Below the pieces are notes generated by a model. The model was not told where the DNA came from, did not search any database, and was given only the letters and a program-made list of their open reading frames with translations. Positions 12,134 to 52,000 of a stretch of DNA of 64,000 nt are shown piece by piece. The DNA comes from Tetracentron sinense (lineage: Eukaryota; Streptophyta; Magnoliopsida; Trochodendrales; Trochodendraceae): contig CM026563.1 in the NCBI GenBank assembly GCA_015143295.1, forward strand, positions 7,178,531 through 7,242,530, written 5' to 3'. Every line of letters begins with the position of its first letter. The stretch's first letter is position 1. Made by a program: the position numbers and the translations under genes.

Positions 12134-15100
12134 ATGAAGGTGACTGTTGTTTCTCGGAGCGGCAGAGAAATCATCAAGGGTGGGCTTGATCTCAATGATG
12201 GGGTTTGCTTGCTACTCTTTCTCTTGGGGCTTTTGTTTAATTTTTTTCTCAATTTTCTTTGATTCTCTCTTCGATTTTTACTATGTAACCTGTTTGTGGA
12301 AATTATGAAAAGGGTTTTTGTTTCTATCTTTTAATTTTATGTTTGGAGTTTTGGGGTTTATGATATTGCCTTTGGATCTGAAGTTATCAGATGTTTTAAT
12401 TTCTTTATGGGTGTTTTGCAGGCTACGGTGACTGATCTACATGAGGCTATTTATCGTCGAAGTAAGTACTGGAAATGCTTCCGTTACTGTTAAAGTGTAA
12501 ATGATGATTAACTTGTGGGTTTATTAGGTTTTTATTTTTGGTTAGAGGGTTTATTAGGTTTAGAACTAGTAATTTTGTAAGGAGAACATCTTTACTTTAT
12601 GCTTAATTTTCTAGTTCGATTGTTGAAAGCAACCATAGCAATAAATCTCAATCCAGCTTGTTATTCTTCTCTTGAAAATCGGAATAGATTTGGAATGCTG
12701 GGTAGTTATGTCATCCAAGGTTTCAAATTTCAACGAAGTTCCAAGAATATTTTTTAAAAAAAAATATTCTGGCAATTTCAAAATTATTGACAAATCAGAA
12801 TTCCAATCAATTTCAGCTAAATATCATACAATTTTTTCAAGTATTTCAACAAAATTTTTGAGAAGTTCCAAAACTCTGAAATTTCTTTTCGATTTCAAAC
12901 AGGAAATTGATGCCGGAACATTTTCGCTGCAATTTAAATTGTCTTTTGTATAGTTGTGTTTCCATGGAAATAAAAATCGCCGAAATTGATACGAAATGGG
13001 CGATAATATAGGTATCGGTAGTCCCCTATATGATCTTTATATTGATACAAAACGAGCGATACGTATTGCTTATTAGTTATTTATGTTTTAATTCATTGTG
13101 TTTGCTACTTTGTTTTTGAGTCTCTTCCCATGACTTTATATTTGGTTCCTAAAACTCATTAGGAACTTATTTGCAGGGTAAAAAATATAATAGTTGTTCG
13201 CTCTATTCCGTCCTTCCATTTTTTCTCTCATTATCAACTTACTAAGTTCGGTAGGAGACAGTTTTGTTCTTCTTCCCTGTCCCAAAAGCGATATAGTGCA
13301 TTTGTAGATATGTTCTTTTTTTCCTTTCCTCTTTACCATTTAGTGATGCATCCTAAACATTTAAGGATTGGAACACCATGTAATTTTGATCCATATATGC
13401 TCATTCTCAATAGGAAAAAGTAACAAACATTTAAATCAAATTATTTCTCATTCAATTTCCCCTTTTATTTCCTATCTAGTAACTTTTCAACATTTGAGCA
13501 TTAACAGAAATATATAAATAAAGATGAGAAAAAGGGGAACGAGTACAAGAGAAGGAGAAACTGGAAATAGATGATGAGAAAACAAAGGAGCAAATGATAG
13601 TGAAAAAATGGTGAGTGTGTGAGAGAGCAATCATTTATGAAGAAGCTAATAACTTACCTATTTTAAGATTTGACTAGTTTCCAATGTTTTGCTTCCTGCC
13701 TTTGTTGCTCTCTTGTTTGAGGAAACCATTGAAGGCTCTTTTCCTCTTTTCTTGTGTTTCCTCTTGTTAATAGTGTAGACACATTTCTGTGAAAAAATAT
13801 ATGGACTTTCCAATTAAAAGAAAGAAACAAGAAGACTGGAATAGAAAGAAAATAAAAAAATGTGAGCAAGAATATAGCAGGTGATTCGATTATCAAATAA
13901 ATATTTAATAAATAAAGCTAATTGATTTTGAGGACTATATGCTTACAAATAGTGACTTCTACGTAGTGCTGGTATGAGCTTGGACTTTGGAGGAGGAAAC
14001 CAGAATTGTTCTATTTTTTCTGACCATCCACAAGAATGAGATATGTGGTTACAATCATCAGATGGCTAGATTTTTGGCCCAGGAAAACTCCTAGATGGAC
14101 CCCATCCCTCCTACTTTCTTGGTAACAGTAGGTTCTAGGGAGGACAGCTCCTCATCTTCCTCTTCTGACTTGATTATTCCTCTTACTATTGTCGTTCCTT
14201 TCTAGAAATCACAGATCTGAGAGTTAACAGGATGCTTCTTTTACATTTATTTTTTGTATTAGAGGAGTAGGCCATGGTTTACATTGCATGGGCACATCAT
14301 TTGCAGCTGCGTACTTATGTCAGGTATGCAGTGAATTGTTGAATCACCCAAACACTATTTGGATTAAGACACCCCAATGAGCATAACCCGTGTCATATTT
14401 ACATGTAGACAATCTTTTGGAGGTTCACCAAGTTTTGATGAAATAAGTATTCATACTGAAATACTCAACTCAAAATCGATTTCAGTTCCAGAATCTTGTT
14501 ATGCAACTTCTTCTTTTTTCTTCAAGGGATTGATCACTTGTTCATGTTTTGATTTGCTACTTTTCTGTAAATTTCAGTTATTATTGAGAATAGTAGACAG
14601 ATATTTGTTCTGGTCTTGTTAATCTTATGTAACACCATTTTAGATTAATTTATAAGCAAATACATTTTTGATTGGCTCCCAGCCAAATCCCATAGTATTC
14701 ATTGATAGGTAGTGTGGAGCCTGTCCGGACTGAACATCCTACCTCTGTTCTTGCTAAATTTTTTCGGGGGTTAGGGGTACTCTAGTACTTTTGCATTTTG
14801 TTATGTAGCCCTAATAGTATTAAGCATCTGGATTAGATCGCAACTTTTATTTTTCTCTCTTGCTCCTGATCATAGTGAAATCTCGGTGACTCCTTGGAAG
14901 TACCTCAACTTGAGGGAACCACGTAAATATGGTTTTCTTGTGTGTGTTCTTGTCATGGTTTTAAAAAACGCCGAAACCGTTACGTAACGGTTTCGGTGAA
15001 CACCGTTACCCGTTACCGTTACGTTACACCTACATATTTTTTTTTAAAAATTTTTATTTATTGTGATTTTTTAAGCAAAAAAAAAAACTCCGTAAAGGCC

Positions 15101-17413
15101 GAAACCGTTACGTAACGGCGTTACGTAACGGTTTCGGCCGTGTCCGTTACGGTGTCCGAAACCGTTTTTTTGAACCTTGGTTCTTGTTGTATATTTCTGT
15201 TTATTTTTCGTATGTCACAGATCCTGTTATGGGTTTATTCCCTAACATTCATTACTTTATTCTATGCTCTCTATGTCGGTCTTAGAGCATTGAGACGATT
15301 TTCATTCGAAGGTGGGTTTAGTTTCGGTCAGTCCTTTTTGCAAACTCCTCCTTTATTGTCTTCCATCCAAGGTTGTTGAACTCACTGCTTTGTATTTAAC
15401 AAGAGGATTGTAATTGGATATATGGTATGTATTTCATGTATCCAGTGACAGGGACATAACAATAGTAGACTGTGTTGTGCTTTCCTATATTAAACCTTTC
15501 TATTGAGAATATTAGATTTTAAATGCTCTAGAACGACTTAGAAAGAAAACATGGGTGTGTCAGCATCGGAATCCCAAGCCCCGAAGTATCTAATCCAACA
15601 TGTGCGAGAAAGTACCCTTCCTTTGTTCAACTAAGAGAAGCTAGTCATTTTGTTTTTTTATCCCATAAATTTGCAATTATTATGATGTTGATTGTTGTTA
15701 TAGGAGTATTCACTTATTTATTTTCCATCTTTATTTTATTTTTTTAAATATGAGGAGCTGTACATCTCAAATGCTGTTGATAACCTGATTCCACTGGCTT
15801 ACATCAACAGCCAAAAAATACTATCCATCTAGACAACGCCTGACCCTCCCTGTCCAATCTGGGACCAAGGAGAAGCCTGTTGTCCTCAACTCCAGGAAAA
15901 ATGTCCAAGATTATTGTGGCGGGAACTCAGACAACTTAACTGTGGTGTTCAAGGACTTGGGCCCTCAGGTTTCCTACCGTATACTTTTCTTCTGGGAGTA
16001 CTTGGGTCCTCTGATCATCTATCCCATCTTCTACTTCTTTCCGGTGTACCAGTACTTTGGCTACAAAGTAGAGCGCGTCATCCACCCAGTCCAGACATAT
16101 GCCTTGTACTATTGGTGCTTCCACTACTTCAAACGTATTATGGAAACATTCTTTGTGCACAGGTTCAGTCATGCAACTTCACCCCTCGCCAATGTGTTCC
16201 GGAACTGTGCTTATTACTGGACCTTTGGCTCATATATTGCTTACTACATGAACCACCCGCTTTATACCCCTGTGAGCGACCTCCAGATGAAGATCGGGTT
16301 TGGCTTCGGGTTGATCTGTCAAGTTGCAAATTTCTATTGCCATCTCTTGCTGAGGAATCTTCGGAGGCCTGAGGGCAGCGGAGGGTACCAAATCCCAAGT
16401 GGGTTTTTGTTCAATATAGTGACTTGTGCAAATTACACCACAGAGATCTATCAATGGTTGGGCTTCAATATCGCAACACAAACATTTGCTGGTTATGTGT
16501 TCCTTGTGGTGGCCGCTTTTATTATGACTAACTGGGCCCTTGCAAAGCACCGCCGTTTAAAGAAGGTAACTGTTAGTTGCTATCTTGCTCATATGCATTC
16601 ATGCATTTTTTTTCTGCAGATGATAATCTGGTACTCCTCTGTCTTATTATATTTTGCCCCCTACACATTGCCAGGGCAGAGCCAGGATTCACTTGCAGGG
16701 GGGCTAACAATGGGGGTTCAGGGCATAGTCCCCGATTTTCTTTTCAGGGCCAAGTTCATGTGCCATTATAATTTATGCCTGTTTGTGTCCGTTTGTAAAG
16801 AATAATTTGTTTCTCAGAAGTTTAGGGGGGGGCTAGAGCTCCCGTCTCCCCGACTCCGCTCCTCTCACAGGCTATAAATACTGTAGTAAAAAAAAAATTC
16901 TAAAATTTCAAGGGGGGCTTCAGCCCCCGTGGGCCCCATGTGGCTCTGCCCCTCCGCACATTGGCACTACAGATTTAGGATGACATAAGTTCATTGGACC
17001 CATATACAGGAATAAAATAAAATAGCACAGCAGTACATGTGCCATATATACCAGGAGGGAAATCCCTTCGGTTACTGCCATGCCAAGAATTGAACTGAGA
17101 AACTATCCAATCAAAAGAATGTCATGGATCAAATGGTTATAATAGCCTGATCCATTTTGGTATTATCTTTTTAGTGTGTTGGACCCATCAGCGTGTCCCG
17201 CTCTGAATGGTCTGGCGTACATTTGTGCCAAATTATATACATATCTGGAGTCTACAAAATGAGAACCTGAAATTCATCTATTTTTCCTTTCCTCTGTTTT
17301 CATAGCTTCTTGTTTCTTACTTTGAACATTTACTTGGTCTGCAGTTGTTCGATGGGAAGGAGGGAAGGCTAAAGTATCCACGACGATGGGTGATACTACC
17401 TCCGTTCCTGTAG
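12134..17413 (+). CDS. ECR: Very-long-chain enoyl-CoA reductase (ECR/CER10/TSC13)
   Basis: This enzyme makes the last, NADPH-dependent trans-2-enoyl-CoA reduction of each very-long-chain fatty acid elongation cycle in the ER, feeding wax, sphingolipid and storage-lipid synthesis. Exons are 12134-12202, 12422-12461, 15811-16565 and 17345-17413. They join in phase to 310 residues, the length of the Arabidopsis protein. The N-terminus ([13 protein letters not shown]) is the ubiquitin-like domain of the family. The membrane steroid-reductase-type domain follows, with [20 protein letters not shown] holding the conserved Lys-Arg pair at 144-145, [19 protein letters not shown], and the C-terminal ending WVILPPFL. 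The first intron begins GTTTGC, a weak donor, but the neighbouring codons ([12 protein letters not shown]) fit the family. Intron 2 (3,349 bp) and intron 3 (779 bp) contain transposons. No break is seen. Confidence 0.97.
12716..13040. mobile_element. hAT-type fragment in ECR intron 2
   Basis: It starts CAAGGTTTCAAATTTCAACG, close to the termini of the 5-kb hAT element, and continues with many AATTTC/GAAATT motifs. No matching right end or duplication was found, so it is a truncated or decayed relative. Confidence 0.45.
14954..15179. mobile_element. 226-bp hAT MITE with GTTACGTAAC palindromes
   Basis: The left end CATGGTTTTAAAAAACG and the right end, read inward, CAAGGTTCAAAAAAACGG are flanked by identical octamers GTTCTTGT (14946-14953 and 15180-15187). 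Just inside each end are arrays of CCGTTACGTAACGG, a perfect 14-base palindrome, and GAAACCGTTACG. It lies in ECR intron 2. Confidence 0.92.
16672..16956. mobile_element. 285-bp GGGGCAGAGCC-family hAT-like MITE in ECR intron 3
   Basis: The ends are CAGGGCAGAGCCAGG and, read inward from the right, CGGAGGGGCAGAGCCACATG. The flanking octamers CACATTGC (16664-16671) and CACATTGG (16957-16964) match at 7 of 8 positions. The interior contains GGGGGGCTAACAATGGGG and GGGGGGCTTCAGCCCCC, as in the copy at 45477-45771. Confidence 0.8.
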
Positions 17414-17719
17414 AAGTGACTGGCAACCTGCCTTTTGATTGGTCTCTTTGGCACAAAGTCTCAAATTAAACAGCATGGTTTCAGTATTGTTTAAGGTCAA
17501 ATGATATTTGCTAGATTTTAAGAAGAGATCAAAATTGCATCCTTCTTTTATCTGCATAATCTTCTATCTTCCATTTAGACAGTATGGACTATTTGAATTA
17601 GATCCAATTGTTAGGAAACTTTAGAATGTTTAAGCTTTGGGAGTTCTTCTTTTTCTTTCGTATCAAATTGTTTGGGGAGTCCCCTCAAAACTTGTTAATT
17701 TAATAGTGTTGTTTGATGG

Positions 17720-18287
17720 CTTCTGGCGTATCTTTGAGATGTTATTTTGATTATGGATTTTCAAGGTTTGTTCCCTTTTATTTACCTGCTTTGATCTGAA
17801 TGTTTTACTTAACAGTCCTGGCACAACACCAACCACCAGCTAACTGAGTGAGAAATTAAACTAGGTGGATCTGAAGTTGCTGAACCATATGAGATAAATG
17901 TTCAAAACCTTTAATGACATGTGTATTCTGTGTTCATGAGGTTGATCATTTGCATATCGAATTTTCTCAAATGGGGGCTTGGAGGGATTTGTATGAATAA
18001 CTGCTTCTGGCGTATCTTTGAGATGTTATTTTGATTATGGATTTTCAAGGTTTGTTCCCTTTTATTTACCTACTTTGATCTGAATGTTTTACTTAACAGT
18101 CCTGGCACAACACCAACCACCAGCTAACTGAGTGAGAAATTAAACTAGGTGGATCTGAAGTTGCTGAACCATATGAGATAAATGTTCAAAACCTTTAATG
18201 ACATGTGTATTCTGTGTTCATGAGGTTGATCATTTGCATATCGAATTTTCTCAAATGGGGGCTTGGAGGGATTTGTATGAATAACTG
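17720..18287 (+). repeat. 284-bp tandem duplication downstream of ECR
   Basis: 17720-18003 and 18004-18287 are the same sequence, starting CTTCTGGCGTATC and ending GAATAACTG. I found one difference (CCTGCTT versus CCTACTT). The unit contains an acceptor-like CTTAACAG. It lies just after the ECR stop and may be in its 3' region. The low divergence implies a recent event. Confidence 0.95.
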
Positions 18288-19327
18288 TTCCTGGTTTCCG
18301 ATCTTTTTTTTCTCTTGTTTGAATGTTGCGAACACAATTACACATATAACACAATCAAATATCTTCACCTTTTCTCATCCATAGTCATTCACTCTCTTAG
18401 AAAACCATCTATTTCCTTTATAACAACATACCCCTTGAATCTTGATTACATTCAACAAAGATCTCATCAAAAAATGGAAAAAGATTGAAACAAAGAAGAA
18501 ACAGCTGTATTAGCAACACCATTAGCATGGATGAGGGCTCTTTCAGGTGTGGAATTTCTCATACAAGAACACATTTGGTGACGAAAATACACACCGATAT
18601 CGTTTTGTGTAGGCCATTCTCACTTTCGAAGATCATTCTTTCCTGCAATGGTATGGACTGTATGGTTTAGTCCGTCTGACTTTCATTGGTGCTGGTGGGC
18701 ATTTTTCCTGGCTGACTGGGATTTTGTCATCACAAGATGCTGGGGCTCAGACACCACAGATTGGTACTGAGATGGCAAATATTTCAAACATTCTTTCCTT
18801 CTGTCTTTTGGCAGTTGGGTTGTGGATTTAGTTTGTGCAGATTGCCATTGTTGGATCATTGGAGATTCTGGATCTAATGACAGTTTCATGTTTGGAACCC
18901 ATATTTGTAATTGCTGACCGTGAATTCTCCCACCCATAATATTTTCCACCTGGATTTGTTCATCTTCTGAATGCTCGATTCCAGTATTTTTCTTCAACTG
19001 AACTAGACTACATACATTGTTCTAGATTGAAGGCTCTAATTAGCTTGGTTTAGTAAGGTAGTTATAACTACTTTTTATATATCCTTTACACTCTCAATAA
19101 TGGCATTTCATTAATCTCCGAATGAGCCTGTTATTTGCAGAAAGGTGAAGGCCAACTTTGGCATTCATACCAGCTGAAAAATCGCTCCCAGTGTTCCTTT
19201 TCATTGCACCGGGGCTCGGCTCTGTGATTCGTAAGAACTATATTACCCATATATACCTTATGTTCTAGGATAAAACTTTGTCCGACGAAAAAAAAAATAA
19301 TCGCCTGTCTTACTGAAACTGGAGCAT
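18288..19327. other. Intergenic region between convergent ECR and WD40 genes
   Basis: It lies between the 3' ends of two convergent genes. A minus-strand open frame at 18997-18683 (104 codons, Gln/Ser-rich, no recognised domain) has an acceptor-like CTAGTTCAG upstream near 19007. It could be a stray exon, a gene relic or chance. Nothing else is supported. Confidence 0.35.
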
Positions 19328-22300
19328 CTATGTAAGGTCTCTGAAAAGATTGGTTTGGCGGCCAAGCCGTAGCGGTAGCCCTAAATTTTGATATGTCCTG
19401 ATCTCACCACCCAACCCTGCTGTCACAACCACCATACCCCATGCTGTTGCTTGGATACTAGTTCTACCATTACTACTACCGCTATCAAACCACGACCGAG
19501 ATGAAGATGATGAAGAATTGCCCGAAGTGGATATGGATGGTGAATCATCGTACTTGAAAGAAGTGGAAGCAAATGAGGAGCTGCTGCCATGTTCAGATTC
19601 TTTATTGAGCTCCTCCTTTGGGTAGGTTGACGCCCTCTCTAATACGCCGCTCTTCTTCGGAAGAGGAGGCAAATGTCTCCTACTGCTGCTGGTGCTCATT
19701 AAGGCATCTTCAAGGGTTTGAGCTCCATTTGAGGGTGGTGGTTGGGTGGTGGTGCGTTTTGAGTGTCTCTTGGAATGCAAAGGTATAGTTGGTGGCTCAC
19801 CCTTGATACAACCAGGCCAAGGAATTGCGACGGACACGTCTCTGCACTGGAAGTGTTCGTGAGTCCGAGTAGTAATCAAACCTTTGCTTTTTCCGCCACC
19901 CACATTGCGAATCTCATCGCGCTTCCATACATATACTTGGGAATCCTCACTTGCACATACTACATATTTCCCGTCTGCTGTGAATGATGCTGATATTTGG
20001 CTGCTGGTATTACGAAATCCTGTCAACCAATCCCATTTCTATATTTATAAAAAAAAACAGACAAAATTTTACATATAGATAGAGATTATGATGATGATGA
20101 ACCTGTGAACTTGTGGATGATGTCTGAACCATCGAAGATCCGGATTCTTGAATCAGCAGATGTAATTAGCACTTCAGATGGATTCCCTGGTGCAAACTGC
20201 TCAATGACAAATTAGTCTAATTATGTTTGAATTAGAGTAAAACCAAAGTTCAGTAAAATAATAGTTTGTTAATAGCATTCATATCATAAATATAAAGAGA
20301 GAGAATTCCAAGGATTTTAGGACCTGGAGATGAATAGCATTACCTGGAAGCCAGTAATCTTTTTGGCATGAGACTTCTTTTTGTTCCGGACATCTATCAG
20401 ACCTTGCTGCTGTAGTTTGCATTCTGAATTACCAGAGAAAATGGACATAAACATAGACATTTATACATACTGATTTTAGCTTTCTGCTTTGCAAATATAC
20501 ACAGTTTTTGCTACTGCTTTTGTGCAAAAAATTAATACATTCTGTAGCTGTTTGCTCAATCAAATCCTTTATAAAGTATATTATGATTCAGTGAATTCCC
20601 CTAATACTGCGGCTACATAAGCAAGTGCGATTATTTAGATTTCACATAAATATTTGGTATTAAGTTTTAAGGTAATCGAGATGATCTACTGATTCTAGCA
20701 GGAAAATGGGAAGTCTTTGAAGGTCTGAATTAATGGTGATAATATTTTATAACCAGTTCGACAAGTCTAGAGAAAAAAAAAAAAAGAATGCAAGCAACCA
20801 CACAATGGAAACAACGATATACGTGGTTCGGCAAGATGCCTACATCCACGGGTTAAACCGGCTAAGAGAGATTACCATATAAACAAACTCTCTCGAAACC
20901 CTCTCTGACAGCCCTAGAAAAACCCCATAATTGCAACCTCAAAGAAAACCCTTATATACCTAAGAGACAAAACAGGTCAAAATACCCAAAAGGGGTTGGG
21001 TGGGGAAATCCCTGCCCATCCCTCCAAACCCATTGCCCATTAATCGGGTTGCATCGGGTTGATACCATTGTCATCAAGAATCCGAGTAAGATTCATGACA
21101 ACTTCCCAACAAACCCATATGCTGAATTTAAGCCATACACAACATAATACACTTGATCTTTTAACAACTGATATAGTAAGAATAAGCAGTGAAGATTCAA
21201 AAAATTAAACAATGGGTAATGCATATCTTGAAGTATAAAAGGAGAGATTAGCATGATGGCTCATACCAGATGTGTTGTACAAACGGCAACTCCCTTTGTG
21301 CGAACCAACTAGCGCACCCTTAAATGACAAAACAAATAATCCATCACCAATTGAATGAAACAATGTTTGAGTTCTGTGTTTACAGTAGTACTTGGAAACT
21401 CTTAAAAGATAAACTACAATGTTTATTTTTTTCGAAGTTGGGGCGTTTGGCATCAATTCTGGTAATTCTCACATTCTGAAAGGAGTTCATTTTTATAAGT
21501 TTAGATTCTTATAATTAATTCTATGCAAAGAACTTGTTTAACAACTGATAGTCCGAGTCAATTATGAAAAAAAGAAACAACAGAATCCCGTTTGGATGGA
21601 TAAAAATTGAAGAAAAACAATAATATTATTGTAGGCAATAAATATGGTTATATTCATCATACATTAATAAGTGTCATAAAATATCCAAAATTTTATTTTG
21701 TCCCGTCTATCTCGTTTTTACACTTATCTCGTCCGTTTTAAGCACGCTTCTCAGATTTAATTCTGAGAAGCATCTTTTTTTCTTCTGCTAAAATTGTGCA
21801 AAATACGAACGATTCTTAAAATTTTTCTCTAAAAATGAATTGTGAAACGCCTTTACACTGTTTATGTTCCTGGGATAAGGAAAATCACTCCCGGTGAATG
21901 ATGTCAAACGACCCCCAAGTAATTTACTGAGCCTGGGCTCTGAACTTCGTTGGCTTCAAGTCGAATTTCTAGTAATCGACTTTGATCCAAAAAGCACCCA
22001 AGCTCAAGTCAGTATTAAACTCAACGAAGTAGCCAACTGAGTATTTCAAGTGAAAACAAGACTGCAATATCATCATAGCTGAACCTGGCCGTCGGGAGTG
22101 TAGCAGGCAGCTGTAACCATTTCATGAAGATCGGTCCAGTCCACAACTAGTCGATCTGGTATACTCCATATGCGAACCTTTGCATCAAGTGAGCCACTGA
22201 TGAAATATCTATCATCTATTGGGTTGAACTGTATACAAGTCACTGCCCAACCAAATCCAAAAGGAAAGCAAAAGTAAATTAGAAAGAAATAATACACTAC

Positions 22301-25089
22301 ATACTCATGTTCTGATTATAGTGAAGTATGGCATGGAATATATTGAGTCTGAACTGAACACAGTCACAACATGGTTAGGCGTCTCACCGTAGTCATTGTG
22401 TGCAAACAACTTTAAACAACTCTTGCTTTCCATATCCCATAACCTAACAGTTTTGTCCATTGAAGAAGAAAGCAGTTGCTGCAAATCAATGAACTAGTTA
22501 CTTGACTGGCGTAAAAAATCATCTAATATTGTTATATCAAAGGTGTAACAATTTGTGTTACATCATTAGGGGATATCACAGGGGAAAAAAATACATTAAT
22601 ATATATCTATCTGTAGATTCACATTTCTGGTGAAAGAGACCTTAGTACAATGCCAAATTATGAAGCCTAACGCTTGGAGTTGACACTATCATCAATCGAT
22701 TTCCTTCTCACCATAATTGTGTCTGGGGGAGACAGACTAGAGGATTTTTTTAATGGAGCTTTCGGGTTCTCGCCTTGTTTGTTCATGAGTTTTCTATGGA
22801 GCAAAATTGAGGATCACTTGTTATGCTCAAGAACTTAAGTTCATGTGCCGAGATGATGGTCTTTGATTGGATGATTGTTCCTCTTTGTCTATGTCAATAA
22901 GGTCATTTGAGATCAAATGGTAGGGCAAATTTCACTAAATGGTGTTCTTCACATGGGAAGAACATGCTTATTGTTTTCAGATGTATCGATAAAATCTGTC
23001 AGGCTTATCTTGACTTACCGGAGATCTTGAAATTCATTACAGTAAGTGGGGTCTCACATTTTAACACAACTTTGAAGTTTCCTAACAACCAGTGATTGTA
23101 TTTTTCTCTGTGATTTGAAAGATTTTCACTATATTTTCCTACATCACTCATAAAGTTCTTCATTCTAATTAATGGTCCCTTTTTTTGTTGAGACTTCTAA
23201 AGCATGGCACTTTGCACTTCATCATGTTAGCTGCTTGGAAATTTAAGTCACTTTGTCAAGGTTTCTAATTACAAGATTAATTCTTACTATCATGAGATTT
23301 CATGTCTTATGTTTTTTTTATGAGAATTGAAATCATTCATTTTGCTGCATTTGAAGTCTCACGGGAATTGCAACCCAAGAGATAAAAAGCACAATCCATC
23401 TAGTTCTCAAAAGAAAATGCATATTGTCAAATGACAAAACTGCAAAGTGCCCGACTTTATAAATCTCTGCAAAAGAATGGACCTAAGTGGCATTTGAAAT
23501 ATCATTTCTAGAGTAGCAGGGCCAATGAACATATCACAGTAAGGTAGGAGGCTTACCTGAGACTTGGACCAAGAGAGGTCCAAAACATCATCCAGGTGAC
23601 CTTGGAAGGAGCACACCGGTTTCTCCGAGAGCGAGAAAACAGTTTCTGGCACAACCACATAGTCAGGGATTATGCTTCCCTTTCTGCTGCTAGACGAAAC
23701 TTTTCCCCTTCTCGCTAGAGGAGGTTGATCAGAGAAACTACCAGTCATTGAGTGAAGCGATGTAGAATTCTCTTCATCATGAGGTCTTGACGGCGTGACA
23801 TCACAATTGAGCACTTCCCATATATGAATTATGCGATCTTCGCCTGCACTCGCAAGGTAACGAGTATCAAAACTAAATCTTATAGTCCAAATTGAGCCCT
23901 TATGAGCCTGAATTTCTTGACACAAATGCAAACCAGTTAGCTCCTTGAAGGATTTCCCATGTTGACGAACTTTTATCCATTCAGAGGAAGAATTCTTGTT
24001 GGATCGCTGTTCCATTAACGATAGATGCTCCCTCTCCTTGTCCCCAATGAATCCAGTCATGGAATTTGCCACCCCCTTTATGTTCTTCAACAAAGCAACT
24101 CCCCTTCTCTTGCTGAATCTGAAGCTCTTACTTAGATAATTCACACCGACCTTTCTCTCGCTACCGCCGATGCTGTCATCGAGAACTCTAGACATGTTTT
24201 CTCGACGCATCAGCTCCTTAACAATGGGGGAATAGCCAACACACTTCTCAAATTCCTCCAGGGTAAGCTGCTTCCCAGTTTGAAGATCACTGAGTCTGTT
24301 CCACATTCCATCTTCATCAAATTCATTGACAATGAACTCCTTACCTGTGTCCAAATTCTTTATCAAAAAGAAAGCACCAAAACGGCTATTCGACGACATT
24401 GCACCATTGGTGCTACTTGCAGACCCTTTTTCGATTTCCTTCCTGGACAGCCTAATTGAATTAGCATGTAACCGCGAATTGCGATCGGATAATGCCGAAG
24501 AAGAACGCTTAAGACACTTTGTTGGGGTAACACCGATAATTTCTTCTTTTCTAAGCTTGGCATTTGCCAAAGCTGATGCTATATCTCCTTCTGATCTGGA
24601 TCGAACAATCACAGTTTCGGGCGATGGTGAAGGTGAAGGTGAAGGTGAAGTTTCTTGCTTTAATTCTCCTGCCAATAATGGTGACAGCTGATGGGGTTCA
24701 TGTTCTATCGAAGTGAGCTTGAATTCAGCACTGGAGAGCCTGAGAAGCTCCTTGTCGCCGGATAACCCCATGCCTTGGAGGAGGCGCTTACGGCGCTCCT
24801 TAATTGAACCAGGCTCGGCCATCCAGACATTGTAGTCCTCGGACATGGATGATGTAGATGCCACCACCGACTCCGCAGCGAAGCTGCTGAATTCCTCGGG
24901 AGGAGCTGATGAAATGGCGGTGGCGAAGGAAATGCGGTTATCGTCGTAGTCTTCATCGGAGCCGGAAGAGGCTAAGTGAATGGAGACGGCGGAGGAAAGT
25001 CGATCGAAGGATTCAAAGAAGCGATCATCTTCGTCTTGGTTCATGATCAAGTCATCCCAGTTCATCGTCATCATCCTCCTGTCTGCCAT
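19328..25089 (-). CDS. WD40-repeat protein, WDR44-like plant family, 899 aa
   Basis: Function is unproven in plants. The animal relative WDR44 binds Rab11 on endosomes, and that role is not shown here. Exons on the minus strand are 25089-23557, 22478-22388, 22242-22085, 21318-21267, 20423-20344, 20196-20103 and 20019-19328. All have GT-AG borders, phases match, and they total 900 codons with TAG. The first about 385 residues are acidic, Ser-rich and disordered, with an SPSPSPSP run and a segment [24 protein letters not shown] typical of this plant family. Beta-propeller repeats start near residue 387: [20 protein letters not shown], then [69 protein letters not shown] and [18 protein letters not shown]. 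The propeller is followed by a Ser-rich insert and a last [20 protein letters not shown]. The intron at about 20424-21266 holds a solo LTR. No break is seen. Confidence 0.95.
20760..21111 (-). mobile_element. Probable solo LTR of a Copia-like element in a WD40-gene intron
   Basis: Read on the minus strand it begins TGTTGGGAAGTTGTC, has a TATA-like GGTATATAAGGG, then CCCGTGGATGTAGGC and CGAACCACGTATATC, a pattern common near Copia LTR ends in plants. A related block lies at 28560-28620. The start is clear, but the other end and the target duplication are not. Confidence 0.55.
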
Positions 25090-28677: not shown

Positions 28678-28683
28678 GAAAAA

Positions 28684-32667: not shown

Positions 32668-33126
32668 GAGCCAGGATTCTCTTGCGGGGCTAACAATGGG
32701 GTCATTGGTTCGAGTTTTTTTTTTAAGCTAAGTCCATGGGTCATTGCACCAGTTTGTGTCCGCTTGTAAAGAATATATTTTTTTGAGAAGCTTAGGGGGC
32801 TAGCAGGGCCGGCCCATCCATTAGGCCATCAAATCCTTTGCTTTAGGCCCCATTAAAATAAATAAAAAAATAATATTAAAAAGGTCCCATTTAGAATATT
32901 AAAAAAATAAAAGGCCCATTTAGAATATTAAAAATTCCCCAATAATAGTTAATTTTTTTTAATAATATTAAAAAAAAAACCTCATTAAAAATTTTCGCTT
33001 TAGGCCTCCAAATGGCTTGGGCCGGCCCTGGGGGCTAGAACCCCTTCCCTTATTAATTCCTATGGAATTTTGTTTTTAAATTCTGGGAGGGGGGATGAAG
33101 CCTCCCAGGCCCAATGGCTCCGCCCC
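32668..33126. mobile_element. GGGGCGGAGCC-family MITE interrupted by a second MITE
   Basis: The left end GGAGTGGAGCCAGGATTCTC with GGGGCTAACAATGGGG, and the right end CAATGGCTCCGCCCCTAC, mark a diverged member of the family at 16672-16956. It is split by the insert at 32804-33030. Its right end takes part in the 134-bp tandem duplication. Confidence 0.65.
32804..33030. mobile_element. 227-bp hAT-like MITE nested in another MITE
   Basis: The termini CAGGGCCGGCCCATCC and, read inward, CAGGGCCGGCCCAAGCC share the 12-base CAGGGCCGGCCC. The flanking octamers GGGGCTAG (32796-32803 and 33031-33038) are identical. Confidence 0.92.
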
Positions 33127-41582: not shown

Positions 41583-41995
41583 TAAAGGTGGAAGGCTAGC
41601 TAATTGGTATGTTTCTTTAGTCTTTGGAGACAGGCCTCAAGCAGTCCTATGGGATGCATGGGGGTCGACTGTCTCCTCTTAGGACTGGTTGCCTCCAAGC
41701 TGAGCCACCTTGACAACACCCTACTGATGAGATGATTACAAAAGAAAAGGCACTCTAATAACTATTAATATTGCAAGGAAAATATATTGTTATTATTTTT
41801 TATTATTATGATATGGAAATGTAATTGATAATAGAAAATTATTTATAGTTGTTGTTTTTTTTTGTTTTTTTTGATAGAGACACCCAATTAGGCCGCAACC
41901 CTGGTTAGCAATTAGTATATGTTCTAAGTTAATGGTGGGTGGAGAGCACAACATTCTCACTCTCTCGGGAATGGATCCCAGAATTATACTATACT

Positions 41996-42201
41996 TTGTT
42001 TTTTTTTGGAACTCAGGATGTTTCCAACCCTTTGGATCAGGACTAATCCCCAAGGATGATGCGGCGTGAGCCCACAACCCGCCACACTAGGTAAGTCTGG
42101 TAAACTTGTGTAGGGCTGCCCCCAAAGGGGGAGTGAGAAATGGAACCCAAGACCTCCCACTTGGGGAAAGGCCCAAGAACCACTGGTCCAACCCTTGTTA
42201 C
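41996..42201 (-). mobile_element. SINE family A (Au-like), about 200 bp
   Basis: On the minus strand it starts near GTAACAAGGGTTGGACCAG. It has an A-box-like GGACCAGTGGTTC, a B-box-like GGGTTCCATTTC about 35-40 bases on, then GGGGGCAGCCCTACACAAG, GGCTCACGCCGC, GGGATTAGTCCTGATCC and an A-rich tail at GAGTTCCAAAAAAAAAC. It is a tRNA-derived short retroposon. The target duplication is not clear. Confidence 0.75.
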
Positions 42202-43093
42202 TAGGCTTGATTGTATTAATGACAATGTGTGTATCCCATGTGGGTGATTTGAATCCTTTCTCCGAGGTCTGATGGTTGATAGGTCAAGGCGATGGTCTGC
42301 ACTCTAATCCATTGACAAAATGTTAATTGGGGTTGTAGTTTAATCATTTTTTATACAATAAGTGACTGTGTTTAGTCTAATTTGATCTATTATTTATTAT
42401 TATTTTATTAAAAATATCATATTTTAACGGAATGACTTAAAAGTGAACTAAACATAGAGAGTTTCAACTCGGTCGAGAGTGAAACCTGAACTGCCACTGC
42501 GCACGGCCAGTGTAGCAGGTAGGTTTCGACATTGGGTCGGCGGAGCCATCCACCAATGGGTCCCATGTAAAGGATAATCAAAGGACCAGATTAGGTGATT
42601 TTAATCATATAATAAAGAACCGGTGGATGTTTAAAAAAAAAAAATTAAGTGTTGTCTTATTCAACGCAGCTTCCACTTTTGTTATTGATGAGGTTGATTG
42701 CGAAATGAAATGGCAAATGGGCCCCACGGACTGAACGGTCGAGATCTGGAGAACCCCACACCGTGCCCATTGGAAAAAAGTGCCCCTCCTTTTCAAGTCA
42801 ACTAGTCAAGTAACAAAAATGCTATCGCCACTCACAAAACCAAACGGACTTCCCAGCGTCACCATTAATCGCGACTAGTGATTGACGCGATTAAAGAGGT
42901 AAAGGAAAATATGTACTCCTTTCGCGTCGTTTAGTCAGCAAAAGTCAATACAACCTAGGAAGAAAAAAGAAAAACACACTTGTAAAATCATTCCCCGAAT
43001 CTCAGTTATAGATCAAACACAAGAAGGGATAAGAATCCATTTCTGAAAATCGATTTCTCTGTTCAATCATTACCCGGTTATTCTCGGCTGGAA

Positions 43094-46000
43094 ATGGAGC
43101 AACTGAACTCCTCTCCTCCTCCGGGACCGGTCGGAGATGACTTCGCCGGTTTCTCACCTGCAGCTTCTCAGCTGCCTGAAATTGTGGAAGAGGGTAGTGA
43201 CATGGTACACGTGGCAGTCGGGAAATCGGTGGAGAAAGCCGTTGGTCTGCTTCACTGGACTTTTCAGCGATTCGGAAATCGAGAAATCGGGCTTGTCCAT
43301 GTTCATCAACCTTCTCCGATGATTCCTACCGTCTGTAAGTTTCTTCTTTTAATTGATTTTTTTTTTAATCTCTAATGCCAAACTGAGACTAGGTTTAATT
43401 TTCTCTAGTAGGAAAACTTCCTGCAAGTCAAGCTAATGATGTAATGGTGTCTGCATATCGAAGAGAGGAGAAGGAACGGACAAGGAAACTTCTACTTGTT
43501 TACTTGGGCGTTTGCCTTGAAGCCAAGGTGCCCTTCTCTCTTATAATTTATATTTTCCTGAAAAATTATAATTGTAATTGGCAGTCTCATTCCAACAAAA
43601 ATAAACTGATATTTATTCCAAGGAACTAAATCCTCTACTGTTATAACCGGATTTGCTAAATTCCGTTATGCTGCTGAGGTGCCACGTGTCCCTTTTGACA
43701 CCCCTTAACTGTGGTTAAGATTACCCACTCCTAAGATTCACCCACTTAGAAAAAAGTATTGATTCTTTTTTTAAGTATTTAATATTTTAAATATTAAAAT
43801 ATTTTTAATACTTGTTTCTAAAAAGTGGGTGAATCTTAATCACAATTAAGGAGTGTCAAAAGGGACACATGGCGACTTCACAGGCATAACTGAATTCCCC
43901 AGAATCGGTTGGTTCCTTATTTTAAACCATCTCACTCTCCTATATTTTATTACCTATTAGAGTCACTTCCAGATTATCTCTGAATGCACTTGTTTTGTTT
44001 TTATCCTTGTTTTTCCACTCTTCCATCTCAACATCTTCATCTCTTATGCTCCATAAAACATAGCTGGTCTACTTTGATTGGAAGACATTGGTCACATTAT
44101 ACTCCAGAAGCACCTCTCCATTTTAACCAACCAACTCTAGTTCCATGAGCAACATCCCCATTAATATCTCCATCTTTATGATTAATTGAGCCGAGTTGTC
44201 AAAATTAGTCATTTTGGGGTATCTATTGGTCATCTATCTCAGATATCACTTTTACCCTATTCGTGTTTTTACTAAATTTACATTCCTTATATCTTGTATT
44301 GATTTGACTTATTTTAAAACCGATCAAAAAAATGTATCCTTCATCCATTAATACCACGTCATCTACAAATAATATACACCAATGGACATCTCCGTGAATA
44401 TGAGCAATCAATTTATCCATAATCAATATAAACAAATACGGACTCATAACTGACCCTTGATGTAACCCCACATCATAGGATACTCGATTGCCTCATCATC
44501 GTCAATAAATTGTTCTCATAGTAGTTCCTACTCCTCATACATGTCCTCATTGATATCAATATATTTTCTTGGGACTCATTTTTTCCTTAATGCCCATTAA
44601 ATTAATTATGTGGGGACTATCATATGTTTTCTCTAAGTTAACAAATATTATATAGAGATCTTTTTTCTTTGCCCTAAACTTCCATCAATTGTCTAAGTAA
44701 GAAGATAGTCTCAATAGTAAAGCTCTCAGACATGAATCAAAATTGCTTTTCTGAAACTAATCTCAATCTTTGTTTAATCACTCTCTTTGTAACTTCATTG
44801 TAGGACTCATAAGTTTGATCCCACGATAATGGTACAACTTTGGACACCTTCTTTATCTTGTAAATAGTCACCACAATACTTTTCCTAGTTTCCGACATTT
44901 TCTTAGTCTTCGAAATATTATTAGACAACCTCTTAAGCTAAGATATCCCAGTATCTCATATACATCTTTACACTTCAATAGGTATATCATTTGACTCCAA
45001 AGCCTTATCTATAGGGGTGTCAATGGACCAGATTGGTTCGGCTCGAAAATGGTCTGATTTCAGCCCTTTAAGCCCATAGGGCTAGGGCCGGGCTCAAAAA
45101 CTGAGACATATTTATTTGGTCCGGGCTAGGGCTTGGTTGCTTGAAGCCCGGACCCGACCTGAACCAAGTATATTACTAATATATATATGAATATAATATT
45201 TATTGCAACTTATTCCTTTTCTTGGTATTTCAGTTGCATCTGAGGCTAAGAAGACCAAGTAGATATGGTTGTGCAGATTTGGTAGCATAGAGGATTTTGT
45301 TATATGTTATCGTCAATGTTTTAAAAGGCGTGAGGCAAGGCATTAGGACCTCAAGATGCATGAGGCTTAAGTATCATAAGAAAGCCTCGTTCTCCCACAT
45401 TTTAACAAATAAATCAAATATAAAAAGATCCCAAAAGTTAATGAAAGATAATAATAAATATGTACACTTATATATGCATGGGCAGAGCCAGGATTTTCTT
45501 TCAGGGGGGCTAGGCTAACAATGGGGGTTTGGGGGCATAGCTTTTTTGAGGGGCAAGTTCATGGGCCTTTGCATTTGTTTGTGTCCATTTGTAAAGAATA
45601 TATATTTTCTCGGAAGTTTAGGGGGGGGGGGGCTAGAGTCCCCCGCCCCCAGCTCCACCCCTCTCCCAGGCTACACCCCTATTAATAATTTAATACTATA
45701 GTGTTTTTTTTCCAAAATTTTAAGGGGAGGGGAGCTTCAGCCCCCCTGGGCCTCATGTGGCTCTGCCCCTGTATATATGTATTCGTGTACATTGTGTGTG
45801 CATGCGCATGTGCAGGGATGCAGCCAAGGGGACATGTGCCCCCCCTTGAACATTTGAAAATCATACAACTTTTAATTTAATTTTTTTTTATAGAGCATAG
45901 TATGGGCATGGTAGCTGCCAGCCTGCCCCCCCTCTTGAACTTTTGAAAAAAAAAATCTTTTATACTATATTGTTTAATTATTTAACTCAGACATAGTTAT

Positions 46001-49000
46001 GGGACAAGGGGTAAGTTGTTCCCTGAATAGGGCATAGCCATTGGGCAAGAGGGCCCTTGATGTCTCTATCTACTATTATTCCCAGTCCACTCCCATTATT
46101 TGTCTTATTGAAGTACAAAATTCTTACTCATCACCTCTCTCCAAGCTTTATCCCCTTTCTACTCAATCTCGTACAGGCACATTATATTAATTCTCATTTT
46201 TTGCATTGCAACAACCAACTCCAATCTCTTACATACTAAAGTCCTCACATTCCAAGTAGCAAGATGTATCTCACTCTCTTGGACTAATTTCTTTAGTCGC
46301 ACCTGTCCATTCTAGCTCAAGAACTTCTGTGCCTACTTTTCACCGCAACTAGACATCATTGCAGCATGTTGCTTATATGGAACGCTCTAGCCAGCCCTTG
46401 CCTACTTTACTTCTAGTCTCTTAATAGGAAAATAAGTGATTTTCTTTTTCTTATTCCAGATGCTTACACATAAAAACGTTTGAAAAATCTCTAACTTTCC
46501 TTTCGAAGTTTTCTACTCTAAAGATTTTGGTGTCACTTGTTTTTTTTTTTTGGTTGAGAATTTTCTCTTATGGACGACGAATATAAATGGATGAGTTTAC
46601 TTGCGAATGGGAATAGGCCTTAGGTAATGGAGAGATATCTGTCTGGTGAAAATGAAAGGTCATCATTAGTCAATACACGTTAGGAAATTAGAAGGTGTAA
46701 TCCGCAAACAATGGTGTTGTAGGAAACATTTGATGGGTACTTAGTAGAATCAGAGTGAAGAAATTAGGTTGACTTGATGGAAAGGATCCATCTCCAAAAA
46801 TATTGTGGTTTTCAATAAGAAGGAAGAGAGAGATGGATAGGTGCCAGTGGATCTGTTTTAAGAATCTTAGAAGTATAATTTTTCCCTTGTCAATTTCAAT
46901 GTAAATTTGGCTTTCTTAAGTTGAATTTTTCGTGCAACTCCTGTTTCCTAGAGACCAGGACATTTTGGATCAATCTCATTTTTACTGGAGGCAACTAAAA
47001 TAAACGCTTTCCAGGTGAAAGCAACCATCATAGCAGTTGAGGCTGGACAAGTTCAGAAAGGAATTGTAGATCTGGTGAACAAGCATGCTATTAGGAAGCT
47101 TGTTATGGGGGCAAGGCCAGAGAAGTAAGTGGTTCTCCTTGCCGTTTGAATTTATCTCTGATGATTAGCACACAATGTATGTTTATATGCAATTATGGGT
47201 TATCTAGAATCTTTTGCTTATTTCTGTGTGGTTTCTCTTGTTTCCTGTGATAGCCACAAATAGCTTCTCTCTTATATTCAACTCCCAAACATACTGATAT
47301 TTTTTCCCGATAAAAAGATTTAACATCTTCATTGTTTGTCAGATAATAAAGAAGCTTTTGATATTCAAATTTTATCGGAGAATGTTGTGTTGGAGGAATA
47401 GAAAAGAAGAAGAATAAGAATAAGATGGAAACATATGATTGCATTGTAGAAATGTATGTTATCCTCTCTGTAGATTTTTTTTGTCTGCCAACAAATTTAT
47501 ATACAATATTCCAGAGTAAATGAAAAAAAAATTACACTAATAAAAAACATATCTTAAAATATTCTAATCAGATAAAGCTACCTTGGGATAAATTGAAAAT
47601 TGCATGGCTTTAGATTTGCCTTCTGGCGAAAGGAATAGATATATGCAGCTCACCCTCTCCATAATTGCCTAAAAGATCATGAGGGGTAAGATTGTAAACA
47701 AGGATTTTTTGGCACATAGTAGTCCGAAACTATGGAGAAAGTCAGCAAATCCCTTGGAGAAAAGGTTGGGGGAGATAAGAGTTTTTTTTTTTTTTTCTTG
47801 GAAGGTGGGGGAGATAAGAGTTGCATCAATTTTACGCTGAATGACATGGTAATCAATCTTTATTAATGAAACACTCTCTTCCATATGGTCTAGACAGATT
47901 GTTATTGTTATCACTATACCATAGAGATTTGGACTTTAAAAGGCAGATCCCAGGATCAATTAGATGACCATTAAGTCATAAAACTTAATGGAAGGGGAAG
48001 AGAACAAGTGGCACCTGAATTTGACAGCACTAGGTTTGCCACGGTGAATTTTTTCTTTACCATCCTACAAGTGCCAATAGAAAATGATGCTTTTAGTGTA
48101 GAGAATCATAACAATTTGGATATCAGAATGTTTAAGCACAAAGGGAGGGATTAGCAAAGGACATGGACCAGCCAGGCTATGAGAAAATTTAGCACGAAAA
48201 TCCAGAATGTAATAGAATGAGCATTAACTGCATGGCAATGTTGGTACAGTGACTGTCATGAATGTAAGTCCAAGATTCAATTGCTTATTTTGTGTCAAGC
48301 ATGGAAATAACTCACCAATATACTTGGAATTCCTCATTTAGGTTACATGGGGTGTTAACTTCTTCATCGTGAGTAGATTAGCCTTATTGATCAAATTGTG
48401 GAAGTGCAAATCAAAACTAATACTGAATTGATGTGAGCTGATTTTGTGTCAATGCAAAACTCGGTCCTGAACTTTCTTACGAGTTCCATTTTTTAATAAG
48501 CTTATGGTATTTTTTTTCTAGTTTTTAAGTATTCAATTTCTTCAAGTACTGCCTTCCAAAAAAAAACAATCTTCAAGTACTTAATCCAGATCTGCAAGTA
48601 TGGATTTGAGTTCATATCGTAAAAGACCATACTTCCCCCTTAATGCAGTTAGTGTCTTGATCCAATACAGTTGATCGAACAAGTTTTCAAGTACTCGATC
48701 AAGTTCTTAAGTACTATTTTTGGGTTGAGAGAAAAAATAAGCATGTGTAGACCTCAACTTCAATACAGAGTATATTCAGTTCTCTCAGTCGTTCATACCG
48801 GATGGAGCAAAAACTTCGTAAGATTGTTGATTATGAGTTTGTTAGTTCGGATATTACAATGTTATCAATTTATATCAGTTGTACAGTAAAATTGCAGCCA
48901 AATAGAGTGTATAAAGAAGGCTCCTACACTATGCAAGGAGCGGATCTGTTTGGATGTTGCAGGGGCCTGGCGTCCCTGGCCAGCTTGTAGACTCACAATC

Positions 49001-52000
49001 CATCAGGCCCTGTAAATTATGTGATGGAACAGGTAGGGCATCTTGTCTGGAATTCAGGAGCATTGATGTGATTCAAGAATCTTGCTGGGCTCGTTAGTCA
49101 AATGGACTTTTATGGGTCACCTGACATGAAACAAGTTTAGGCCTGAAATTGAAACCGCGTAAACTTGGATTGTATGACTTGGTATGCCTACAAAAAATGT
49201 GGGTTAGGCTTGGGCTTTTACAAGTGAATCCAACGTGCTATTTCAGCCATATGTGTGCCACTATTATGTATTCGCATACCATTTGTTGTTTGAATTCTTC
49301 TGTATCCTGTAGATCCACAAAAAAATAAATTAAAATCTTGTATGACGAGGAGCATGACATCGGGTATGGCTCTGTACACAATCAAACTCAATTAGTTCCT
49401 CTTTGCTGAGCGAAGTTGTGATGCTTCCTCATAAGAGGACTTATGAAGAGACGACAGGATTACGTGAAACGGTTGATGGCGAAGTGATAAATTTTTAAGC
49501 TTGCAAGGGGAAACCATCAAAGGGATGCTCGACATGGTGGGAAGGCTGCTAGGTACACAGCCAGTGTGGAAAGAAGGATTGGGTGTCGAGGATTTTGAGT
49601 TGTCTTTCACTTACTCTTATATGTACATATTTATACTGAGTTTTTTTTTTCCATCGCTTGTCTATGACATTTGTATTTTTTTTTATCACATGGCATCTAG
49701 AAAATTTATTAATGGTGATAATAATAAAAATAATGCAACCACATTTACTTCCACATCTATACCAGAGTGACCTCTTCTCTGATTGGAAACACTTCAGATG
49801 AGGCCCTCACAATGATGCGTTGTGTCACCTTAGCCTAGCTGGGATCCTTGTCTGGACGGGGCCACCTTGTTTTGGTGATAACTGTGGTCATTTTCAGTCT
49901 GCAAGAGCTACATGGGCACATTTAGGACAAATGTATTGGAAAATTGACATTAACATAACTAATAACTCCGCTAGCTCTGTGTTGCCTGCATTGCGGGTCC
50001 CAAGTCTGGGTGAAGAAAGGTTGGGTCAAGTTGGCAACTCGGGCTTAGCTAGTGGTGGAGGTTTTCTTAGAGATGAATCTAGCAGGTGGTTGAAAGGTTT
50101 TGCATATAATATTGGCATTTGTACTATGACTATGGCTGAAGTATGAGCCATCTATCATGGTCTTGCCTTGGCTTGGTATGCGAGTTATAGACAGGCAATT
50201 GTGAAACGGACTCCAAGTCTGCTGCTTTATTTCTGAAGAAGGAAGCCGCAATTCGTGACTCCCATAGACCTTTAATCAATGCTTGTCAAGACTAAATTTT
50301 GAGGTCTTGTGAATGCCAGTTGATGCATGTGTGCAGGGAAGAGAATTTCGCAACAGATTGGCTTGCAAATCTTGGTTCTCTTCCCCTTGGCTAGAAGATT
50401 TTTACGGATCCCTTGATGATCTTAAGGTTTTGCTTAGAAATAACGTAATTGGGGCTACCATCCCTAGGGTTTGTTCTCTGTAGTTTTGTGGGCTTTGCCT
50501 CCCATTGAACCAAAAAGAAAAGTTGGGTGGGGATATAATCATGAATTATTGCTCAGTTGTTTTGAGCTTTATGCTAGGGCATTCCTTGGAGACAATGGGT
50601 CGGGCAAGACCTAACCTACATTATAGTTGAAATTGAGATAGGGTTAGCAAGGGAATTTACTGGAACTTTGGAATAGACACACTCAACGACGCTTTGTTGC
50701 ACTAAAAAGTAGGTAAGGGTCCTCGTTCTAGACTGGACAAGTGCAATTAAAGAAGCTTGTACAAGAGAGTAGGATTTGTCTCACCATTTGGGATGTATGG
50801 ACTTTGATAATTAAGAGGTTGGAGTCAACGTTCTAAATGTTGATATTGTAGGATATGACGCACCTTGAAAAAAAGATATATTGCAGGATATATCGTTTTG
50901 TGGGGAATAAATCGCACGTTGAGGGAAAAATTGGGGGAAAATGGGAAAAAATTTAAAAATTTTCAGTGACTTCAAGAAATGTTAAATAAACGTTAATACA
51001 CATTTTAGAATAAAAAAATAACAATGTACATAAGAGATGCAATGGGAAGGGGGCAAAGATGTACGCACGTTGACACTTTTTTATTTTATTTTTTTAATAA
51101 AGCTTATTTTGCCGATCAAAAAATAATAATAATAATAATAATACACAATTTGAATTTCATACATGATACATTCATGTTCCAACCCACCCTAAGAACTACA
51201 ATAAGAGCCACATGGAGTTAAGCTAAAAAATTAAAAATTTTGAGGTTCTTCCAAAATTATTTCCTTTTACAAGAGTTGTTTGGTCTTATTTCCTTTTACA
51301 TCTTAGTATCCCATGGACCTTTCCCTGTTATTTCCGAAGCTTCTTATCATGCTGACTTTTAGTGGCATTCCTTTCGCCGACGGGCATTGTTTGACCTTTC
51401 CTTCCAGGGTTGATAGTTTGGTCTCTCTGGAAAGAAATGAATAAGAGAGTTTTTGAGGACACCTTGTTGACCTTGCCATGGATCCGTTTGCGAGTACGCC
51501 ATCTAGTTTCAGACTTTCAGCATGGTGTTCTGTAGGAGAGAACTGTGGTGACTCTTGGAGGGATATTTTCCCACCTTAATCTATTGATGTAAGCCAGGTT
51601 TTGTATTTTCTTTCTCCTTTTGCTCTCCTGGGTTCACTCTTTGTGAACTTTCTTTGTTCTCCCCTCTTCTTTTTATATATTGATATCTTGATTACCCATT
51701 TGAAAAAATATTTCGCACCCCTGCGATATCAAAAGACGTTTGGGATATATCGGAAATATCAAAGATGTTCAAACCATGGTTGGAGTTGGTGGATTCAATC
51801 AAAAAGATGAGAGTTAATTTAATGTATCTATCGAAGACCAAATGGAAAGAGGATAAAGCTAGGAGATTAATGATGGTGCATATGTTGGTACTAGGTAAAG
51901 GGAGATAATAGGAATAATATATTAATAATTGTGGATTAATGCATGAAGGATAGTACTGTAGGGGTAAAGAAAGTAAGGAAGAGGTTGTTGTCAAAATAGT

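Follow-up and report, generated by a model that had tools for sequence, protein, structure and literature searches.

A conserved terminus and family-specific subterminal words in hAT transposons of Tetracentron sinense

A stretch of 64,000 nucleotides from the Tetracentron sinense genome (GenBank assembly GCA_015143295.1, contig CM026563.1, positions 7,178,531 to 7,242,530; hereafter, the window) contains three hAT transposons, E1, E2, and E3, with similar tips and arrays of short repeated words just inside them. They are ordinary hAT transposons, and the useful part is the matched set of fingers and words that they and their relatives in the host genome provide: five families have related transposases, and each pairs its transposase with a word of its own. 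Very probably, these families represent a single hAT lineage with a BED zinc finger and a DUF659 core, in which the tip is conserved while the word array and the BED helix diverge together.

Tips, words, and transposases of five families

E1 (positions 3562 to 8596 of the window, minus strand, 5035 bp) is a complete hAT-type element with a transposase and GAAATTTCG/ATTTCG words, and E2 (14954 to 15179) is a nonautonomous element of 226 bp with CCGTTACGTAACGG/GTAACG words. The host genome (1.16 Gb) was searched with the DUF659 piece of E1, and 125 of 1752 candidates were scored. The piece has at least 127 genome matches, at least 23 rows of which are 35 to 40% identical to E1, with the others at 53 to 100%; among the matches listed, none has an identity of 40 to 53%. 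Ten of the 23 distant hits were opened, and seven of these have a CA..GT..AAA-type tip. Four of the seven (C13, C23, C2b at C2:7159128, and C7b at C7:34458628) make up one family with GAGGCG/GCGTACGC words, and the remaining three carry GTAACG (C2), AACTCG (C4), and ATCGTA (C7). For four of the seven, sequence was retrieved on either side, and each proved to be a complete element: C13 (4469 bp, duplication CCCCGGAC on both sides), C4 (4548 bp, GTTTTGAG), C7 (4400 bp, TAGGCAAT), and C2 (5399 bp, ATGTCAAA and GTGTCAAA, identical at 7 of 8 bases).

Thus, the words by family are ATTTCG for E1, GTAACG for C2 (the partner of E2), GAGGCG for C13 (the partner of a one-ended fragment at 45314), AACTCG for C4, and ATCGTA for C7. 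Tabulated by element, the own word is found 25, 11, 12, 7, 10, and 9 times in E1, E2, C2, C13, C4, and C7, respectively, and foreign words are found 0 to 2 times. The first bases of E2 and of the C2 element end are identical at 35 of 36 positions, and their right ends (CAAGGTTCAAAAAAACGGTTTCGG and CAGGGTTCAAAAATACGGTTTCGG) are similar; judging from these ends, E2 is a miniature derivative of the family whose full-length member is the C2 element. The fragment (45314 to 45476, starting CAATGTTTTAAAAGGCG) aligns with element ends from C13 and C23 and, by its sequence, belongs to the family of C13. An earlier, sequence-only reading of the window had suggested that the motif change follows diverging transposases, which the five families support, and that elements clustered by motif would pair with differing BED fingers, which came out as predicted for E1, E2, the 45314 fragment, and two further families. 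The same reading named escape from competition as another possible cause of the motif change.

Both sides of the contrast between tip and word can be expressed in numbers. For 14 ends, i.e., both ends of seven elements (the one-ended C14, C2b, C7b, and C23 were excluded), the similarity in CpG words averages 0.66 for ends of one class (11 pairs; 0.19 for the two ends of E3) versus 0.06 between classes (80 pairs), and none of 5000 label shuffles reaches the observed value. In the same ends, tips of different classes share 9.2 of 13 bases versus 5.0 for random sequence with CA fixed, although the tips also hold some class signal (30 of 5000 shuffles). The terminus, which had been called fixed, is therefore alike between classes but better described as conserved: bases 3, 4, 8, and 9 vary, and two related families appear more divergent. 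A CpG starts at bases 14 to 17 in 15 of 18 ends, a count that, like the word table, includes the four one-ended copies; the three that do not fit are the two ends of E3 and that of C23. With random placement deeper in the same ends, the mean is 5.0 and the maximum is 12, and none of 5000 trials reaches 15.

The transposases are related throughout. In the DUF659 region, E1 is 36 to 39% identical to the other families and 59% identical to C15, an E1-type region; identities are 41 to 59% among the other families and 93% within C13/C23, and the decayed C15 fragment is 22 to 28% identical to the rest. A tree of ten transposases (midpoint-rooted, for drawing only) places E1 and C15 apart and groups C13/C23, C2/C10 (node support, 92/94), and C7/(C16, C20) (94/92). 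Pfam recognizes DUF659 not only in E1 but also in all five other core pieces that were scanned (C2, C13, C4, C7, and C20). The Pfam BED domain scores above the cut-off in C2, C13, and C4 and, at 19.4 bits, just below the cut-off of 20.6 in C7. The hAT dimerization region was found in C2 and C4 (C13, C7, and C20 were not separately scanned for that region). Because of this relatedness, the outcome that would have spoken against the proposal, namely, motif classes falling into unrelated transposase clades, did not occur.

These data bear on the possibility that the termini are convergent, i.e., that hATs all need approximately CA..G...TG, that AT-rich runs are common in this genome, and that families tipped with CA..GTTTTAAA do not form one lineage. 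Bases 1, 2, and 5 are conserved in hATs generally, and tip matches with up to two mismatches are at chance level, with 18 in the window versus 21.5 in simulated sequence. For that reason, the terminus alone was rejected as evidence, and only terminus, duplication, and internal array together are counted. However, the between-class similarity of the tips, the single alignable set of transposases with DUF659 in every scanned core, and the quite different tip (TAGGGCTGTCAA) of a second hAT lineage from the same genome all argue against convergence, which we consider improbable.

Another explanation holds that the arrays do not serve as transposase sites but are by-products, for instance expansions of a hairpin-forming or satellite-like kind that are tolerated close to the ends. 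Indeed, E1, E2, and C2 contain 7, 4, and 5 close inverted word pairs, respectively, and these palindromic arrays are thus able to form hairpins. Nevertheless, one word is common to both ends of an element, related copies mostly keep their word, the distance between the tip and the CpG hardly varies, and known hATs use such repeats, AAACGG in the case of Ac (PMC3260210) and AAGT in the case of Hermes (PMC10368747). A by-product origin therefore appears very unlikely.

If the families do form a single lineage, the outer 13 bases, approximately CA(A/T/G)(G/T)GTTTTAAAA, would be handled by a shared catalytic core; they change little between families. The word array, which begins about 14 to 17 bases from the tip and is palindromically paired in E1, E2, and C2, would be bound by the BED fingers of its own family, probably in pairs, and the right transposase would thereby be loaded on the right ends. 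As a transposase clade diverges, the BED helix, whose residues would decide the word, and the word array would change together, with the tip staying much alike. E3 would be an old nonautonomous member of this lineage.

Several observations weigh against this single-lineage scheme. Only 10 of the 23 distant transposase hits underlie the set of families. Among these, C16 has a single end, CATAGTTGTCAAGGCG, which is divergent, is followed by words of the GCCTCAGGCG type, and has no duplication partner; C20 has no more than a possible end, TAGTGTAGTCAAGGCG, with CGCCTAGGCG words; and no terminus was found when the C10 locus was opened; the same was true of the E1-type regions C15, C21, and C22. 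C13, C16, and C20 all use GC-rich words of the GGCG type; word change may therefore be a gradual drift and not a switch. The end of C7b, a copy grouped with C13, contains a single GAGGCG but four copies of GCGTAC, and C23 is without a CpG at bases 14 to 17. By the same count as above, C13, C4, and C7 have no close inverted word pairs, and the palindrome part of the scheme thus rests on E1, E2, and C2. The own word of E3 (GATATC) is counted twice, no more than the foreign words of other elements, and no transposase of the E1 clade with the word of E3 was found among the opened loci.

Outside the window, tips with ATTTCG arrays are present in four of the seven opened E1-type regions (C14, C1055 with two ends, C3, and C849; 5 ends in total), and the other three, C15, C21, and C22, yielded no tip. 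The opened regions are 53 to 74% identical to E1, which partly reflects the decay of dead copies; what they show is thus persistence of the word through the history of the family, as opposed to persistence through equally deep transposase evolution. The C15 locus has, some 600 to 800 bp upstream of an E1-like BED finger, a TGCGATCGATCGCA-type palindrome array (L041, 1450 to 1600) without a recognizable element end, and this array was excluded from the word table. Two E1-type ends 143 bp apart (L050, 915 to 1059) face away from each other and hence belong to two copies lying back to back. A different repeat element of about 600 bp (L030, 30 to 640) has TAGGAAGCACGGA inverted ends, is packed with GGATACG/CGTATCC words, and has flanks that, by eye, share about 7 of 8 bases.

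Elements and fragments of the window

The perfect 8-bp duplications reported for the three elements are real, matching at 8 of 8 bases in each case: GAGAGGAA at 3554 to 3561 and 8597 to 8604 for E1, GTTCTTGT at 14946 to 14953 and 15180 to 15187 for E2, and GTTGGAGT at 50818 to 50825 and 51779 to 51786 for E3, a nonautonomous element of 953 bp (50826 to 51778) with a CpG-decayed, GATATATCG-type word. All tips are of the CA...TG kind. The consensus CA(A/T)xGTTxxxAA, said to hold for both ends of each element, is seen in five of the six; the right end of E1 is CATGGTATAAAA, without GTT. Pairs of CA(A/T)NGTT ends with a perfect duplication number two in the window (E2 and E3) versus a mean of 0.003 and a maximum of 1 in 300 dinucleotide shuffles. 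Widening base 7 to T/A, a post hoc choice made after E1 was known, gives three versus a mean of 0.017 and a maximum of 1 in 300 shuffles. A looser rule, CA..G tips with a perfect duplication, gives seven versus 1.4 expected (shuffle maximum, 6). Its other four matches are 32804 to 33030, 45477 to 45771, 8703 to 9187, and 11405 to 11822, the last two of which are probably chance matches. The first is a hAT-like miniature element of 227 bp with CAGGGCCGGCCC at both ends and the duplication GGGGCTAG.

E1 has several features of the hAT superfamily, namely, the 8-bp duplication, short terminal inverted repeats beginning with CA (tips CAAGGTTTTAAATT and CATGGTATAAAATT), a BED finger, and a dimerization region. 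E2 and E3 combine the 8-bp duplication and CA tips with the lack of a transposase gene, as expected of nonautonomous hATs; inspection of the internal open frames of E3 by eye revealed no transposase-like frame. One of these frames, at 51395 to 51535, reads VWSLWKEMNKRVFEDT... and has the look of the last part of a LINE reverse transcriptase from plants, in which case some of the interior of E3 may be captured filler. Asymmetry of the third base, with CAA at one end and CAT at the other, holds for E1, E2, and E3; it was dropped as a lineage rule because C4 has CAT at both ends.

The E1 transposase is spread over separate minus-strand frames, with the BED zinc finger in an N-terminal frame at 6744 to 7289 (PF02892, E = 3e-6), DUF659 at 5878 to 6837 (PF04937, E = 1.2e-45), and the C-terminal dimerization region at 5055 to 5324 (Dimer_Tnp_hAT, PF05699, E = 2.8e-12). 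Longer open frames, reaching 596 codons, are present in some of its relatives at other places in the genome, and E1 is therefore likely to be a broken copy. Comparison of its DUF659 piece with viral and prokaryote collections returned 14 and 58 pattern stretches, respectively, and no relative.

The subterminal motifs CGAAATTTCG and CGTTACGTAACG occur three times each in the 64 kb, and every copy lies within E1 or E2. The left array of E1 is densest at 3578 to 3640, with CGAAATTTCG at 3578 and 3623, and the right array spans approximately 8250 to 8589, with CGAAATTTCG at 8401; the segment from 8200 to 8596 has 20 copies of ATTTCG and 5 of ATATCG. The leading CpG words are ATTTCG for E1, with 25 copies in its two terminal 250-bp segments, and GTAACG for E2, with 11 copies. 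The ratio of observed to expected CpG is 3.69 and 2.05 in the ends of E1 and 2.75 in E2 versus 0.56 in the whole window. CGG was tried as a universal half-site and rejected as stated because CGG/CCG, although enriched in the first two elements, E1 and E2, is absent from the left end of E3; CpG fits better.

For E3, which is poor in intact CpGs, support for the GATATATCG word is thin: there are two exact copies, and the word is mainly found in decayed form, with ATAT(CG/TG/CA) occurring 10 times in the terminal 500 bp versus 1.1 expected. This word differs by one base from that of E1, and there is a slightly less than even chance that it is a drifted, CpG-decayed E1-type array, so that the window would hold fewer codes than claimed. 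Among the one-base variants of ATTTCG present in E1-type ends, ATATCG is the most frequent (11 copies versus 55), the end of the E1-type copy C14 contains CGATATATCG once, and intact CpGs in E3 are few. On the other hand, the ATAT form exceeds the ATTT form 10 to 1 in E3, and the other E1-type copies with an end keep ATTTCG as the main word. Of the three codes proposed for the window, two are safe, as is that of the 45314 fragment, whereas the third, from E3, coincides with the most frequent one-base variant of the E1 word.

Two fragments had been described as fitting the same pattern. The first (12716 to 13075, starting CAAGGTTTCAAATTTC; its right border is arbitrary) contains ATTT(CG/TG/CA) 10 times in 360 bp versus 1.5 expected from the window and, on this composition, is an E1-type end with decayed CpGs. 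The second, placed at 45310, in fact starts at 45314 and carries another word, GAGGC. Both are considered one-ended because a search across 9 kb that allowed one mismatch gave no copy of their flanking 8 bp preceded by TG. Directly behind the second fragment lies a miniature element of 295 bp (45477 to 45771) with the ends CATGGGCAGAGCC and CAGGGGCAGAGCC and the duplication TATATATG; an inverted partner of part of it is found at 45923 to 45953. We take its ends to resemble those of Tip100-type hATs.

BED fingers and a second hAT lineage

Nine BED fingers from eight families (C13 and C23 being one) were aligned. An Arg at position -4 from the zinc His, corresponding to N67 of Hermes, is invariant, as are the four presumed zinc ligands, D1, W4, G32, and L40; the variable positions are -5 (Hermes S66) and -1 (Hermes R70). 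The residues at -5/-1 in the five families are T/Q, T/E, S/N, N/H, and F/H. The C15 finger, from a decayed copy excluded from this alignment, has Gln at -4. In Hermes, base contacts are made by residues 63 to 67 and 70, with histidine 71 as the zinc ligand (PMC10368747). Sequences of the fingers matched nothing convincing among PDB chains (one chain at E ≤ 1; two at ≤ 10; six at ≤ 1, the best being 0.022), and an AlphaFold model of the E1 BED piece, built from a single sequence, was unusable (mean pLDDT, 49).

All five complete families have a word with CpG, which, together with the fixed Arg, suggests that the invariant helix Arg may read the CpG in the words of this lineage. Across 11 transposases of both hAT lineages, helix identity correlates with word similarity (Mantel r = 0.51; 2 of 5000 shuffles); with one transposase per word class, r is 0.43 (87 of 5000). 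The set took 5 of the 13 elements of the second lineage, described below, and excluded C16, C20, C10, and C15 (no clear end), C14 and C7b (finger not read), C2b (nearly identical to C13), and E2 and E3 (no protein). Two points tell against assigning the word to the helix. The helix and the protein as a whole diverge in parallel, and the Mantel correlation therefore does not separate one from the other; and the second lineage has His at -4 yet CpG in two of its three words, which speaks against a general Arg-CpG rule. A simple readable code for hAT BED fingers, in which the invariant Arg at -4 of this lineage anchors the sites on CpG and the residues at -5 and -1 write the rest, is a tentative and rather doubtful proposal. 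If it were true, plant genomes, in which each hAT family brings both a finger and its sites, would be a ready-made library for learning the code, and the CpG would make the mobility of each family directly sensitive to DNA methylation.

The second lineage came from 20 regions around the top hAT dimerization hits, in a search that demanded perfect 8-bp duplications. Thirteen of them (within L009 to L027) hold elements with TAGG(G/C)(C/G)TGTCAA tips and such duplications, one end of L023 being off by one base; the other seven regions have no such pair of tips and duplications. The elements tipped with TAGGGCTGTCAA fall into three groups by word, GATCGGATC-type (2 elements), CGGATA/GAATTCG (2 elements), and GGCCCT (9 elements), and their BED fingers, read in 12 of the 13, differ in step with the words. 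This lineage, which we presume to be Dart-like, therefore shows the same pattern of one tip and several words independently. It resembles the E1 lineage in combining one tip with several words and with BED fingers that differ accordingly, and differs from it in the tip itself, in having His in place of Arg at -4, and in one word that lacks CpG.

Comparison with known hAT systems

Which miniature elements a transposase can mobilize, and when, as well as the point at which families separate, depends on how it distinguishes its own ends from those of closely related elements. A single genome here gives a matched series, with nearly the same tip, five words, and a transposase for each. If the pairing holds more widely, BED specificity could be inferred from transposon ends instead of one assay per protein, which is also relevant to host proteins made from such fingers. 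The tip-versus-word pairing for plant DUF659 hATs is not stated in the titles or abstract openings surveyed (subscription papers and transposon databases were outside the survey). When the motif words were looked up in the literature, none of the matches listed concerned transposons, judging by title.

Hermes of the house fly is a hAT with an 8-bp duplication, and maize Ac/Ds elements have a tip that differs from the one seen here. The left end of Hermes is similar in its use of a BED finger and of repeats just inside the tip, where two BED domains cooperate in binding a subterminal repeat that is quasi-palindromic (PMC10368747). The Hermes word is AAG(T/C), whereas the words described here are family specific and mostly contain CpG, and their transposases match Pfam DUF659. 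Maize Ac/Ds elements share with the Tetracentron elements the hAT tips, the 8-bp duplication, subterminal hexamers, and miniature derivatives; the Ac transposase binds many short AAACGG hexamers, and miniature derivatives share little but the tip and the repeats (PMC3260210). AAACGG is not the main word here, that place being taken in the window by ATTTCG, GTAACG, and the ATAT type. The closest parallel in specificity comes from the CGG-binding BED proteins and hAT-19 transposases, related hAT BED proteins whose diverse DNA words, mostly with CGG, match their own subterminal regions; these are animal and fungal proteins measured on arrays, and a shared tip as opposed to changing words is not discussed in the portion of that report at hand (PMC8097297). 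It is already known that repeats inside the tip are bound by hAT transposases and that BED domains are diverse in their specificity (PMC10368747, PMC3260210, PMC8097297). What is added is a matched series of tips, words, and transposases in one plant genome, along with the testable idea that the finger sets the word.

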